NCBI GenBank assembly: GCA_009777515.1
Contig: WRLR01000005.1
Coordinates: forward strand, 1 to 64,000
Source: Oscillospiraceae bacterium
Lineage (GTDB): Bacteria; Bacillota; Clostridia; WRLR01
Length of the DNA: 64,000 bases
Direction of reading: 5' to 3'
A program made the translations under genes and the position numbers. Shown here in pieces: positions 6,063-20,300 of the stretch (positions within the stretch are counted from its first letter, which is position 1; every line of letters starts with the position of its first letter). The notes under the pieces are model-generated. The model was given only the letters and a program-made list of their open reading frames with translations, searched no databases and was not told the origin of the DNA.

Positions 6063-7604
6063 TTAATCCATTGCTTCCAATTTGCCGCTTTCCACCCAAC
6101 TGTCGAGATAGTCGATCCACCATAGAACAACCTGTTCATGGGAAGGCTGGGTGTAGAAGGAGAGGGCGAGCGAATCCACAATGACTTCATATCGCCGGTC
6201 GCCCGCAATGAGAGTATCGCCGCCGTTTACCGTCAGCGTTCTTTCGGAGCCATCCTCGTCAAGCGCTAGGCCGAGAGCGGAAAAATCGCCGTCTTCATTA
6301 TTATAATAATCGGCAATGGCATGTGCCGTTCCCTGACCATATCCGCCGACGGACCCTATCGAACCGCCACCGGAACTATCGCCGGCGCCGTCGATACTTT
6401 CACCACTATCACTATTTCCGCTATCGCCATCGACGTTTTCTCCTCCGATGCTTTCGCCGCCGCTTTCAACGCTTTCACCGCCGTCGCTGCCACCGTTGTC
6501 GCTTTCGCCGTCGCTTTCGTCGCCCCTTGAATTGCCGCCAGAACCCAGTGCGGCGGCGGCGCTTGATTCCAACAACGCCGCATTGCTAACCCTGCTCAAT
6601 ACAAGCCCAAAACTTATAATTGTGACGAGCACAATAGCCAATGCTACCGCAACCCGCGAGGATTTCTTGAAATTCATTACATTTTTTATGCGCTTCTTTA
6701 TGCCGTCGTCGCCAAATGCGAGCGGGAGACCGCCAATAACAGGCTGGCCAACCGCCAAAGACAGCAAAGACATCGAGTAGTCCTTTTTTATCTCCCCGCC
6801 CAACTCTTTCAATACGCGTTCGTCGCAGGACATTTCCATATCCACGCTCATCAGCAGGAACGCCGCCCAAGCGAATGGGTTGAACCAGTGAAAGCAAAGA
6901 ATGAAATATGCCAAAAACTTTATAATATGATCGAACCGCCGAATATGCGTCTGTTCATGAAGTATTATATAGTCGCGCTCCTGCCCTGATAAATTCAGCG
7001 GGATATAGATTTTCGGGTTGAAAGCGCCCGACACGAACGGCGATCGGATACAATCGGTTTCGTAGAGATTGTGTTCATTGTCAATGCGGATAGCCGAACC
7101 CAGCTTATGTTTGAGGCGAGCATATGACGCCGCCCCTAAAACCAGTAGAAAAACCGTGCCGACGAACCACGCCCATGAACCAAATACCGTCCAGAACTGC
7201 ACAAAATTTACGTTGGCGACGCTGGCGGCGTTTGTGGCATTTGTAGCGTTTGCAGCACTGGTAGCGATATTAGCGATATCGGCCTGCGGTGGTATCAGCA
7301 CATTGCCGAAGGCGTTGTTTAAGAATGGTATCCCGCTGTCGATGCGGGGAGCGGGCTGCGTCGCAATGTCCGGTGGTATGATCTGCGCATTGAACGGGAT
7401 CAGGCTGAACACGCTTTCGATTGATAAGGGGAAAGCCAGCCTGAACCACGCCACAGCCCATAGGCAATAGGATATAATTTTAGGGGCTTTTTTAATCGAA
7501 AGGCGGACGAGGCAGATTGCCGCGACGACAAAAGCGCCGGTAATGCTCATATTCAAAACTGTAAGGAACAGTTTATCCATTGCCGCCGCCCCTCTCATGT
7601 TCAT
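6063..7604 (-). CDS. M56-family (BlaR1/MecR1-like) transmembrane metallopeptidase receptor with non-penicillin-binding C-terminal region
   Basis: HEQTHIRRFDH (HExxH), CDERVLKELG, four-TM organisation; overlaps a BlaI-like gene; Ser/Gly/Asp-rich linker then a C-terminal WWIDYLDSWVESG module. Confidence 0.9.
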   Translation of the reverse strand: MNMRGAAAMDKLFLTVLNMSITGAFVVAAICLVRLSIKKAPKIISYCLWAVAWFRLAFPLSIESVFSLIPFNAQIIPPDIATQPAPRIDSGIPFLNNAFGNVLIPPQADIANIATSAANATNATNAASVANVNFVQFWTVFGSWAWFVGTVFLLVLGAASYARLKHKLGSAIRIDNEHNLYETDCIRSPFVSGAFNPKIYIPLNLSGQERDYIILHEQTHIRRFDHIIKFLAYFILCFHWFNPFAWAAFLLMSVDMEMSCDERVLKELGGEIKKDYSMSLLSLAVGQPVIGGLPLAFGDDGIKKRIKNVMNFKKSSRVAVALAIVLVTIISFGLVLSRVSNAALLESSAAAALGSGGNSRGDESDGESDNGGSDGGESVESGGESIGGENVDGDSGNSDSGESIDGAGDSSGGGSIGSVGGYGQGTAHAIADYYNNEDGDFSALGLALDEDGSERTLTVNGGDTLIAGDRRYEVIVDSLALSFYTQPSHEQVVLWWIDYLDSWVESGKLEAMD

Positions 7605-7974
7605 CTATCAGCCGTTTTATCTCCTCCACTTGCTCCGGGAGCAATTTTCGGTTGCTGGTATATGAAGCGATAAACATTGGCAGAGAACCGCCGAAAGCGT
7701 CGTCCACATATTGGTGGCTCTGCCCCGCGATGATCTCATCACGCGAATAGAGCATGGTCACGCATGAATTTTCATTTTTGGCAAGCCCTTTGCCGATCAG
7801 GAACTTTAAGTTCGTAAACGTGGTGGACTTTTTCCAGCCGAACTCCCGTTCCGCAATCTTTATCATTTCCATAGATGCAATCGGCGCGTTGGCCCACAAA
7901 AGGTCCGCAAGCCTTGTCTCGGCATTAGTCAATTTAAATACAGGAGCCATATATGCCTTTCCATTGATCTCCAT
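7573..7974 (-). CDS. BlaI/MecI/CopY family transcriptional repressor (start may be 7950, MAPVFKLTNAE)
   Basis: KLTNAETRLADLLWANAPIASMEMIKIAEREFGWKKSTTFTNLKFLIGKGLA, winged-helix BlaI family; coupled to the M56 gene. Confidence 0.9.
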   Translation of the reverse strand: MEINGKAYMAPVFKLTNAETRLADLLWANAPIASMEMIKIAEREFGWKKSTTFTNLKFLIGKGLAKNENSCVTMLYSRDEIIAGQSHQYVDDAFGGSLPMFIASYTSNRKLLPEQVEEIKRLIDEHERGGGNG

Positions 7975-8010
7975 TGATCACTTGTGATCACCTGTGATCA
8001 CCTGATCATT
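7961..8010. repeat. 10-bp tandem repeat, palindromic core TGATCA, at the start of the blaI-like gene
   Basis: ccattgatct ccattgatca cttgtgatca cctgtgatca cctgatcatt. Confidence 0.7.
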
Positions 8011-8099: not shown

Positions 8100-8288
8100 T
8101 TATCTTAATTTAACAGACTCCAGCCTGCATGTCAACAGTTGACACGGATGCGGGCAACACCGCACAGCACAGTATTTTTTCCAACCCAGCATGACAGGCT
8201 CGTCGTGTTTTCTATGCCAACCATGCCTTTCTACGGAATAAATTTTTATTAAATATCCGACATTTTGCTTTTATAAATCGTATTATTA

Positions 8289-8999
8289 ATGAAAGGGGGC
8301 AGCGATTTGATGCCAACCGTGCCAGCGCGCGGCAAGGGAACGGCATGCGGCAATACCGAAAAAGCATATTCGAAGCATTTCGATGCAGAGGAAATATATA
8401 TGGAGCATTTCGATATGAAAGAAACATATGCGCGGCATTTTGATACAGATAAAAAATATGTGCGGCATTTTAATACAGATAAAACATATACGCAGCATTT
8501 CGATGCAGATGAAACATATGCAAAGTATTTCGATATAGAGGCAATTTATACGCGGCATTTCAATATGGTTTATCGCATTTGCTATTCATACCTTAAAAAT
8601 CCCGCTGATACAGAAGACGCAACTGCGGATGTATTCGTAAAGCTTATGCGAAGAGGCATCGTCTTCGGTGATGCCGAATATGAAAAGGCGTGGCTGATAC
8701 GTACGGCAATAAACACTAGCAAGGATTGCCTCAAGCATTGGTGGCGCAACCGCGCAAATATTAACGAGTATGAACACATACAAGGCGATCAGGGCGATAG
8801 CTCTTTGGAGATTGATGAAACTTTAAAAGCCGTCATGGAGCTGCCCGCGCGCTATAAGGATGTGATATACCTCCATTATTACGAGGGCTACACATCCGGC
8901 GATATAGCTAAAATTCTGAAAAAACCGTATTCCACTATCCGAAACCACATGCGTGAGGCTCGAAAACTATTGAGAGGAGTTTTGGAAAATGAGGGATAG
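8289..8999 (+). CDS. ECF RNA polymerase sigma factor with repeat-expanded N-terminus
   Basis: FNMVYRICYSYLKNPADTEDATADVFVKLM (region 2) and LPARYKDVIYLHYYEGYTSGDIAKILKKPYSTIRNHMREARKLLR (region 4). Confidence 0.92.
   Translation: MKGGSDLMPTVPARGKGTACGNTEKAYSKHFDAEEIYMEHFDMKETYARHFDTDKKYVRHFNTDKTYTQHFDADETYAKYFDIEAIYTRHFNMVYRICYSYLKNPADTEDATADVFVKLMRRGIVFGDAEYEKAWLIRTAINTSKDCLKHWWRNRANINEYEHIQGDQGDSSLEIDETLKAVMELPARYKDVIYLHYYEGYTSGDIAKILKKPYSTIRNHMREARKLLRGVLENEG
8358..8567 (+). repeat. seven 30-bp in-frame tandem repeats in the sigma factor N-terminus
   Basis: Units such as gataaaacatatacgcagcatttcgatgca encode (D/E)xxYxxHFDx; the last unit merges into sigma region 2.1. Confidence 0.95.
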
Positions 9000-10473
9000 A
9001 AAAGTTATCAATGCTTTTAATACTATTCAACCTGGCGAAGATATAAAAAGACGGGTGTTCGAAAAAGTTATGAAAGCACAGGCCGGCCATAGGAATCGCT
9101 CTGTTATTAAAGCCGCTTTGTCATGTGCGACGGCGGCGGCGCTTATATGTTTAATTGCCTTTAGCAGTACGCTGTTAACACCACGCATTAACTTTTTCTC
9201 ATTGCCGTCCTCAACACCTCCGGCATTCTTGGCGGCGGGCGCCGGCGATGCTGCCGCAGCAGGCGATGCGGCAGAGGAAACGACTTGGGAGGTTGCGGCA
9301 GCGGCAACGGTTTTCGAGGATGATGGCCCAAAAGCGGCTGCGGCGGCGGTTTATGAGGATGATGGCCCGGAAGCGGCGGCGGTGGCAACAGCTTACGAGG
9401 ATGATGGCCCGGAGGCGGCAATAAAAGCTGCAAGCAATGACGAGTCGGGCATAACCGAAGACCATTTGCCGCAGCAGGGCGCTAACGCATTTTATTTGAC
9501 AACCTACGGGCTGGTTCAAAATCCCGACGGCTCCATTGAGTTGCGCGATGTTCCCTTGTCTGGCGGAAAAGATTTCAGGAGTTCCTATAGCGATGGAAGC
9601 GTTCTATATGTAAGCGTTAATTTAAAATATAGCGGCGAAAACATCGAGCGCGTGGATTTTTTTACCGACGACGGCTTTTTCGCGAAGCAATATCTGAAAA
9701 TAGAAAACGGCAATGTAGTCGAAGAGCCCCGGGCCATGTCCCATTCAGACCCAAGCAATGCCGAAAATGCTTTAATTACCATGTATGGGTATGACTTTGA
9801 CGCCATTGGGAGCAGCTTCACGCTCTACAAAGACTCTGTAACGGACGATTACCTGCTATTTCTTGGTACGGAGATCAACGGCAACAACGACTGGCGGATA
9901 GCTCCGCCTCAAATGACTGTGCGCGCCGTAGCCACATTCAATGATGGCACGACGCAGGAAGAAATGTATGCGCTCGACCTTACCAATGACATAGGGATGG
10001 GCGTTATACAGCATTCGCCGGAAGAACAGGAGAGGTGGCGGGTTGAATTTGAAAAATACAGCAATCTGCTAAACAACATACCGCTTGCGCAATGCGAAGT
10101 CGTGCCGGGCAGCGTGCGACATCTAAAATATGGCGATACATATGAATATAAAGACGGTATGGATGATGTAATCGGGACAGCGTCTTTTGCCATTTCAGAA
10201 GAATCAATAAAATCCGCTATTGACCAAGGGCTATTCGATGAAAACGGAATTTTCATAATTGGATCCAAGCTATATGATTTACACGGCGTGGGAGGCTTCG
10301 GCGACAGCGACGGCAGCGACGGCAACAACGTCAACGATGGCAGCGACGGCAGTGATGGCAGCAATGGCAGCGACGGATTTATAGCCGTGATAATCAATAA
10401 CTACGACGGAACATTTACCGGTATGGTCTACACAGTGCCGTGGAAAATGATAATAGAAAGCGTGAAAAAATAA
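8989..10473 (+). CDS. membrane-anchored anti-sigma-like protein with extracytoplasmic repeat regions
   Basis: ATG overlaps the sigma gene by 11 nt; short cytoplasmic N-term, single TM (ALSCATAAALICLIAFSSTLL), then EDDGPEAA repeats and a (DGSDGSDGSNGSDG) tract. Confidence 0.75.
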   Translation: MRDRKVINAFNTIQPGEDIKRRVFEKVMKAQAGHRNRSVIKAALSCATAAALICLIAFSSTLLTPRINFFSLPSSTPPAFLAAGAGDAAAAGDAAEETTWEVAAAATVFEDDGPKAAAAAVYEDDGPEAAAVATAYEDDGPEAAIKAASNDESGITEDHLPQQGANAFYLTTYGLVQNPDGSIELRDVPLSGGKDFRSSYSDGSVLYVSVNLKYSGENIERVDFFTDDGFFAKQYLKIENGNVVEEPRAMSHSDPSNAENALITMYGYDFDAIGSSFTLYKDSVTDDYLLFLGTEINGNNDWRIAPPQMTVRAVATFNDGTTQEEMYALDLTNDIGMGVIQHSPEEQERWRVEFEKYSNLLNNIPLAQCEVVPGSVRHLKYGDTYEYKDGMDDVIGTASFAISEESIKSAIDQGLFDENGIFIIGSKLYDLHGVGGFGDSDGSDGNNVNDGSDGSDGSNGSDGFIAVIINNYDGTFTGMVYTVPWKMIIESVKK

Positions 10474-18881: not shown

Positions 18882-20081
18882 ATGAGCATAAAGATTACAG
18901 GCGTAAAGGCCATCGCCACCGCGCCCCACAGGAGCAACCTGGTGATCGTTAAAATCGACACGAACCAGCCTGGGCTGTACGGCCTGGGCTGCGCCACGTT
19001 CACCCAGCGCTATTCGCCGGTCGTGACGGCGATAGAGGACTACATGGGGCAGCTCCTCGTCGGGCTCGACGCGACGAACATCGAGGACAACTGGAACATC
19101 ATGATGAACTCATCGTACTGGCGGAACGGCCCCGTCCTCAACAACGCGATCTCCGGCTGCGATATGGCGATGTGGGACATCCTGGGCAAAGAGCTGGGCG
19201 TCCCCGTGTACAAGCTGTGGGGCGGCAAGGTACGCGAGGCGGCAGCCGTCTACCGCCACGCCGACGGGCTGACGCCGGAGGCTGTCGCCGAAAGCGTGCA
19301 AAAGTTCATGGACAACGGTTACCAGTACATCCGCTGCCAGATGGGCGGCTACGGAGGCCAAACCAAATACCTGCGAACGCCGGAAAACTCCCCGGAGGGC
19401 CGCTACTTCGACGCACTCTCCTACATGCGCGGCGTGCCCAAGATGTTCGAGGCGGTGCGCAGGCTCTGCGGCGAGGAAGTCGAGCTGTTGCACGACATCC
19501 ACGAGCGCCTCACGCCGATCGACGCGATACGGCTGGCAAAAGCGGTCGAGCCCTATCGCTTGTTTTTCCTCGAAGACGCGCTGCAGCCGGAGATGGGCTT
19601 CTGGTTCGAAAAGATACGCGACGCAGCCGCCGTGCCGATAGCGATGGGCGAGCTGTATAATAACCCGCTCGAGTATATCCCGATGATACACAACCGCTGG
19701 ATCGACTTCGTGCGCTGCCACATCAGCCAGATCGGCGGCGCGACGCCGGCGCGCAAGCTGGCGATCTTGTGCGAGCCGTTCGGGGTGCGAACGGCGTGGC
19801 ACGGCCCGGGCGACGTCTCCCCGGTGGGCCATGTAGCGAACCTGCACCTGGATCTCGTGGCGCCGAACTTCGGCATCCAGGAGTGGTGCGGCTTCGAGGA
19901 ATGGCCGGAAATCCAGGAGGTGTTCACCGGGCTGCCGTGGATCAAAGAGGGCCACGCATTCTTGAACGGCAAGCCGGGCTGGGGCATCGACATAGACGAA
20001 GAAAAGGCGAAAAAGTACCCCTGCACCCCAAGGTCCTGGCCTGTAGTGCGCCTGCCCGACGGCACGCCCGTGAAAGCGTAG
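18882..20081 (+). CDS. enolase-superfamily enzyme, RspA/mannonate dehydratase-like
   Basis: LGCATFTQRYSPVVTAIEDY...AMWDILGKELGVPVYKLWGGKVREAAAVYRHADG...IRCQMGGYGG...WHGPGDVSPVGHVANLHLDL. Confidence 0.88.
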   Translation: MSIKITGVKAIATAPHRSNLVIVKIDTNQPGLYGLGCATFTQRYSPVVTAIEDYMGQLLVGLDATNIEDNWNIMMNSSYWRNGPVLNNAISGCDMAMWDILGKELGVPVYKLWGGKVREAAAVYRHADGLTPEAVAESVQKFMDNGYQYIRCQMGGYGGQTKYLRTPENSPEGRYFDALSYMRGVPKMFEAVRRLCGEEVELLHDIHERLTPIDAIRLAKAVEPYRLFFLEDALQPEMGFWFEKIRDAAAVPIAMGELYNNPLEYIPMIHNRWIDFVRCHISQIGGATPARKLAILCEPFGVRTAWHGPGDVSPVGHVANLHLDLVAPNFGIQEWCGFEEWPEIQEVFTGLPWIKEGHAFLNGKPGWGIDIDEEKAKKYPCTPRSWPVVRLPDGTPVKA

Positions 20082-20300
20082 CGCCGCATATTCGTTATTG
20101 TATACGCCCGTGAAAGCGTAGCGCCGCGTAGTCGATACTATACACGCCTGTAATAGCATAGCGCCGTATAGCCATTATTGCATACGCCAGTGTAAGCGTA
20201 GCGCCATGTAGCCGTTATTGCACACGCCGGTGAAAGCATAGCGCCGCGTAGCCGTTATTGCACACCTGTGTAAGCATAACACCATGTAGCATTATTTAAT
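20064..20300 (+). repeat. 40-bp tandem repeat array starting in the last codons of the enolase gene
   Basis: acgcc.gtgaaagcgtagcgccgcgtagccgttattgcac begins at 20064, 20104, 20144, 20184, 20224 and 20264; first unit carries the native ...VKA-stop. Confidence 0.95.

Follow-up and report, generated by a model that had tools for sequence, protein, structure and literature searches.

At the 5' end of an ECF sigma factor gene in the window (the whole stretch of DNA analyzed here, 64,000 nt, from an uncultured Clostridia-type bacterium), a 30-bp unit is repeated seven times in frame. This raises the question of where the units came from, whether they belong to the translated protein, and whether they alter the function of the sigma factor.

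The sigma factor gene and its repeat units

The gene product is over the cut-off for Pfam PF04542 (Sigma70_r2) and PF08281 (Sigma70_r4_2) and for NCBIfam TIGR02937 (sigma70-ECF), and Pfam found no sigma-3 or region 1.1 domain in the protein encoded at 8310-8999. Its closest solved relatives in the PDB, both by sequence and by fold, are ECF sigma factors. The protein is an ECF (group 4) sigma factor of the stress type. The features of the locus, all on the + strand, are as follows.

8258..8284, +, ECF-type, probably autoregulatory promoter CGACATTT-N13-CGTATT (motif found in >20 homologues)
8292..8299, +, putative ribosome-binding site AAAGGGGG, G-rich (from the sequence; kept in relatives)
8310..8999, +, ECF sigma factor, 229 aa, with regions 2 and 4 only (Pfam, NCBIfam and PDB matches to ECF sigma factors)
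8310..8357, +, predicted start ATG 8310 (TTG 8307 possible) and 16-residue leader MPTVPARGKGTACGNT (aligns with the leader in L005)
8358..8537, +, six extra units of 30 bp that duplicate the start of sigma region 2.1 (unit comparison, Tandem Repeats Finder, profile)
8538..8567, +, unit 7, EAIYTRHFNM, the native first ten residues of region 2 (Pfam Sigma70_r2; alignment A1)
8989..10473, +, probable cognate anti-sigma factor, overlapping the sigma stop (full-length alignment with the ORF downstream of the G175 homologue)
9295..9419, +, private tandem array, ~42 bp x 3, just after the anti-sigma membrane helix (Tandem Repeats Finder; G175 alignment)
10305..10376, +, private 9-bp array (Asp/Gly/Ser) near the anti-sigma C-terminus (Tandem Repeats Finder; G175 alignment)

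The units at 8358-8567 encode, in order, EKAYSKHFDA, EEIYMEHFDM, KETYARHFDT, DKKYVRHFNT, DKTYTQHFDA, DETYAKYFDI and the native EAIYTRHFNM. They lie head to tail in a frame that stays open across the array, as in an intragenic tandem repeat (minisatellite). Tandem Repeats Finder (TRF) scores the array at 164 with period 30 and at 191 with period 60. Any two units are identical at 17-26 of 30 bases, all seven differ, and the longest exact repeat is 16 bp. The array is genuine and beyond chance expectation, because triplet-shuffled sequence (shuffled within 300-bp blocks) keeps only 0.4 arrays of any kind per 100 kb. Elsewhere in the window, an array at 20063-20265 has five 40-bp units, a period that is no multiple of three.

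The Pfam match to region 2 begins at 8544, inside unit 7, so this unit is the native one. For the other six, a region-2.1 profile was made from the first ten residues of region 2 in the 31 relatives of alignment A1, with the window protein left out, and 22,423 other 10-mers from the window's long frames served as background (99.9th percentile, 5.0). Units 1-6 score 12.3, 17.9, 13.7, 6.8, 5.5 and 2.9, which puts unit 6 at roughly the 99.8th percentile and the other five beyond the 99.9th. The profile sum in register is +59, and those of the nine other registers are all negative. Since the profile recognizes units 1-6 in one register only, the duplication is real and derives from the start of region 2; by sequence comparison, units 1-6 are in-frame duplicates of the opening segment of that region. 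The sequence-only reading had described seven in-frame 30-bp units of which the last is the native start of region 2 and the others are duplications of it, and all of this held. Its wording that region 2.1 is repeated applies to the ten residues that open the region 2.1 helix; region 2.1 as a whole is not copied.

The array within the predicted protein

Upstream of more than 20 homologues, CRACRTTT-N13-CGTATT is followed by TGAAAGGGGG or a close variant, and the 13-nt gap is constant. An AAC/CGT-type promoter conserved in sequence and spacing before its own gene is as expected of an ECF sigma factor, and the promoter is probably autoregulatory. The leader aligns with that of L005, the nearest relative (an equally good score in 2 of 5000 shuffles), and an ARG motif after the start also occurs in one G175 homologue. 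The leader being common to L005, the array is a clean insertion of 180 bp that separates an old leader from region 2. Transcription and translation are predicted to begin upstream of the array, which is almost certainly translated; the earlier assumption that the repeats are part of the protein agrees with the upstream position of the conserved promoter, the ribosome site and the L005-like leader.

In the AlphaFold model (from alignment A1) the sigma core is confident and the region 2.1 helix is lengthened back by about one and a half units (residues 66-95). The pLDDT over the earlier units is ~50 or below, and it is 41 when the N-terminal 97 residues are modeled alone. The 10-residue period gives no continuous helical face, with a moment at 100 degrees equal to that of shuffled sequence, and a continuous amphipathic helix was ruled out on this ground. 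The helical array that had been proposed was not borne out by the model or by the moment; the array most likely makes a longer, mostly unstructured tail.

When the protein is aligned to RpoE of E. coli K-12, a unit covers the segment aligned with RpoE residues 23-32, and unit positions 1, 4, 5 and 9 correspond to residues 23, 26, 27 and 31. All four of these RpoE residues touch class I anti-sigma factors, at helix 4 or the linker preceding it, and lie within the polymerase clamp-binding region, and residue 27 is the top-ranked co-evolving contact (PMC7406223). All seven units have Tyr at position 4 and Asp or Asn at position 9, and position 5 is among the most variable. The codons of positions 4 and 9 also keep their third-position T in all units, so common descent would be enough to explain the conservation.

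Non-majority bases at codon positions 1/2/3 of the seven units number 17/12/10 (chi-square ~2, 2 degrees of freedom). The earlier statement that the units differ at third positions, implying selection, is contradicted by these counts, in which third positions vary least, and by a pN/pS of ~0.94 (pS 0.30, pN 0.28), although with only seven short units selection would be hard to detect. In this small sample, unit variation gives no sign of constraint at the protein level. The antisense strand at 8286-8558 holds a 90-aa open frame with hydrophobic, Cys-rich decapeptide repeats, in which the differences between units are mostly synonymous (reverse pS 0.68 vs pN 0.18, units 1-6); the codon-position counts are not significant, and selection on this frame was rejected.

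The overlapping downstream gene is predicted to encode a short cytoplasmic part, one membrane helix and a long extracytoplasmic part, and Pfam found no class I anti-sigma domain in the product of 8989-10473. Its N-terminus aligns with the ORF downstream of the sigma gene in L005. As homologues are equally placed in L005 and G175, this membrane protein is the probable cognate anti-sigma factor. It aligns with its G175 counterpart except in segments that include both private arrays. In G175 there are two paralogous pairs of sigma and anti-sigma genes of this type (L174, L175), the closest full-length relatives found for the window's anti-sigma. The L005 ORF (3064-3330, 3' of the sigma gene) is similar to the N-terminal part and membrane helix of the anti-sigma but ends after ~88 codons. 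Divergent to the sigma operon, genes for a BlaR1-type M56 peptidase and a BlaI-type repressor occupy window positions 6063-7974; a stretch close to the C-terminus of the BlaR1 protein is rich in Ser, Gly and Asp, and a 10-bp unit, TGATCACCTG, occurs three times at 7975-8004, just upstream of the BlaI-type gene, as a possible operator.

Distribution of the array and of tandem repeats in the lineage

The array was found in no relative examined, either among 80 contig loci, where the N-termini of relatives could be read, or among 391 genomes drawn from the class, 111 of which have a homologue (match at E <= 1e-20). Nearly all of the class matches begin at residue 50 or later, one that starts at residue 38 runs through a stop codon, and none besides the window itself covers the array. 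Among the three genomes of the family or order, only the source genome has it. The homologue in G001 is split across two contig ends, and the end with its start shows a plain short leader, MAKSLLRTDREIAELYERHKK. No second copy of the array was found in the same genome, no array in its other sigma factors whose sequences were read, no array in viral contigs, and no solved structure resembling it; the plasmid matches listed were only sigma core matches of ordinary sigma factors. By this survey of sequences, the array is private to one genome or lineage.

Array density was estimated with TRF. The source genome has 45.5 tandem arrays per 100 kb, a figure that rests on 464 kb, and two other family members (G001 and G002; loci L125-L144) have 72 and 26. 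The relatives' loci have 15.6 and five other genomes of the class 0-17.5. From the high density and the two private arrays in the anti-sigma gene, we concluded that array expansion is a habit of this lineage. Many family arrays (in the window, in L105-L124 of G000 and in L125-L144) keep the reading frame and fall in interdomain linkers, such as those in the ORFs for an ABC transporter (L119) and an aldo/keto reductase-ferredoxin (L112). Of the 81 in-frame arrays in the 464 kb, none matches the sequence complexity of the sigma array; in the other scanned array-bearing proteins with Pfam domains the arrays lie outside the domains, and the sigma unit is a domain start. These two properties together are the one unusual trait of the sigma array.

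Origin of the array and comparison with known systems

The best explanation, which we hold to be probable, is a near-neutral, lineage-private, in-frame expansion at a free end of the protein. Slippage or unequal recombination would have duplicated the ten codons that open sigma region 2, in a genome, and a family, where short tandem arrays are unusually abundant. With transcription from the gene's own ECF promoter and a translation start 5' of the array, the product would be an otherwise ordinary ECF sigma factor with ~60 extra residues between a short leader and region 2. The insertion would be tolerated because the N-terminus of the sigma-2 domain, where it is located, is a free end; it probably has no effect, or mildly tunes stability or partner affinity. 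The sequences themselves show the duplication, its reading frame, the conserved promoter and start 5' of it, its absence from the relatives examined and the wealth of arrays across the genome; we infer the slippage mechanism, the actual transcription and translation, and the near-neutrality. Such an expansion is favored because the array is private, the genome is array-rich, pN/pS is ~0.94 and the array is poorly structured in AlphaFold. Counted against it are the invariant positions 4 and 9, both of which map to anti-sigma contacts, and the complexity of the array with a domain start as its unit.

In the main alternative, the units mimic the contact segment for anti-sigma and RNA polymerase and form a decoy or avidity array for the anti-sigma or the beta-prime clamp, with copy number tuning sigma activity. 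Such a role is possible because the units copy the anti-sigma-contact segment (RpoE 23-32, with its class I contacts; PMC7406223), positions 4 and 9 do not vary and all six extra units still score as region-2.1 starts. Yet position 5, the equivalent of RpoE 27, is among the most variable, pN/pS is close to one, the array occurs in a single genome and is modeled with low confidence, and the contact map may not apply to a cognate anti-sigma that lacks a Pfam class I match. We regard this role as unlikely, and the altered anti-sigma or core binding suggested by the sequence-only reading as a hypothesis. Less likely still is its boldest form, a sigma factor with a built-in decoy chain of its own contact segment whose strength shifts by 30-bp slippage, i.e., a heritable volume knob.

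The remaining alternatives have very little probability. The repeat could act as DNA or RNA, whether as operators, as minus-35 decoys that bind the encoded sigma factor or as a structured 5' RNA element, given that third positions are as conserved as first and second and that the unit contains CATTTCGAT, similar to the conserved minus-35 region CRACRTTT. However, only one unit is within one mismatch of GACATTTTG and the others have two to four, and a minus-35 decoy array was rejected on these weak matches; inverted repeats are absent from the array, and an RNA element was rejected since folding is worse than that of shuffles (z +1.86) and there is no Rfam match. Such a role is highly improbable, and equally so is translation from within or after the array, which would leave the repeats mostly outside the protein. 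AGAGG followed 8 nt on by an in-frame ATG in unit 2 could serve as an internal start, but it would still keep most of the array, and the conserved promoter, ribosome site and leader are all upstream. Between the GTG of unit 4 and ATG 8565 there is no in-frame ATG, GTG or TTG, and a start at 8565, where no clear ribosome site is seen, would drop the first nine residues of region 2. An assembly artefact, named earlier as what could undo the observation, is the least probable of all: the assembly is fragmented (272 contigs, 91% complete, 7.5% contamination), but all units differ and the 16-bp longest exact repeat is shorter than usual assembly word lengths.

Judged from the sequences compared, the start of a domain has undergone a genuine repeat expansion, in frame and private, in an ECF sigma factor that is ordinary in other respects. 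If near-neutral expansion is all there is, this would be a clear case of how a regulatory protein grows at a domain boundary by tandem duplication, a process at work across the genome in this family. A functional array would amount to an N-terminal ECF extension built out of the contact surface of the sigma factor.

Clostridial ECF sigma factors with downstream membrane anti-sigma factors (L005, L146-L148) have the same regions 2 and 4, promoter and ribosome site and, where examined, an overlapping downstream anti-sigma gene as found here; they differ in that their leader, of ~5-25 residues, is not followed by a repeat array. Extra sequence before region 2 also occurs in ECF sigma factors with N-terminal extensions (original groups ECF87-89; ECF36), where it is common to subgroups and generally replaces a missing anti-sigma factor (PMC8103513, PMC8999054); for regulation by such extensions, a 2021 review states that no mechanistic information has yet been obtained (PMC8103513). 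In contrast, the extension in the window is not conserved among the orthologues examined, it repeats the sigma factor's own sequence, and it stands beside a probable anti-sigma gene. Intragenic tandem repeats in bacteria, e.g., in Legionella pneumophila (PMC2639597), share the head-to-tail units, the multiple-of-three length and the location within a coding gene, whereas the unit described here is the first segment of a conserved domain.
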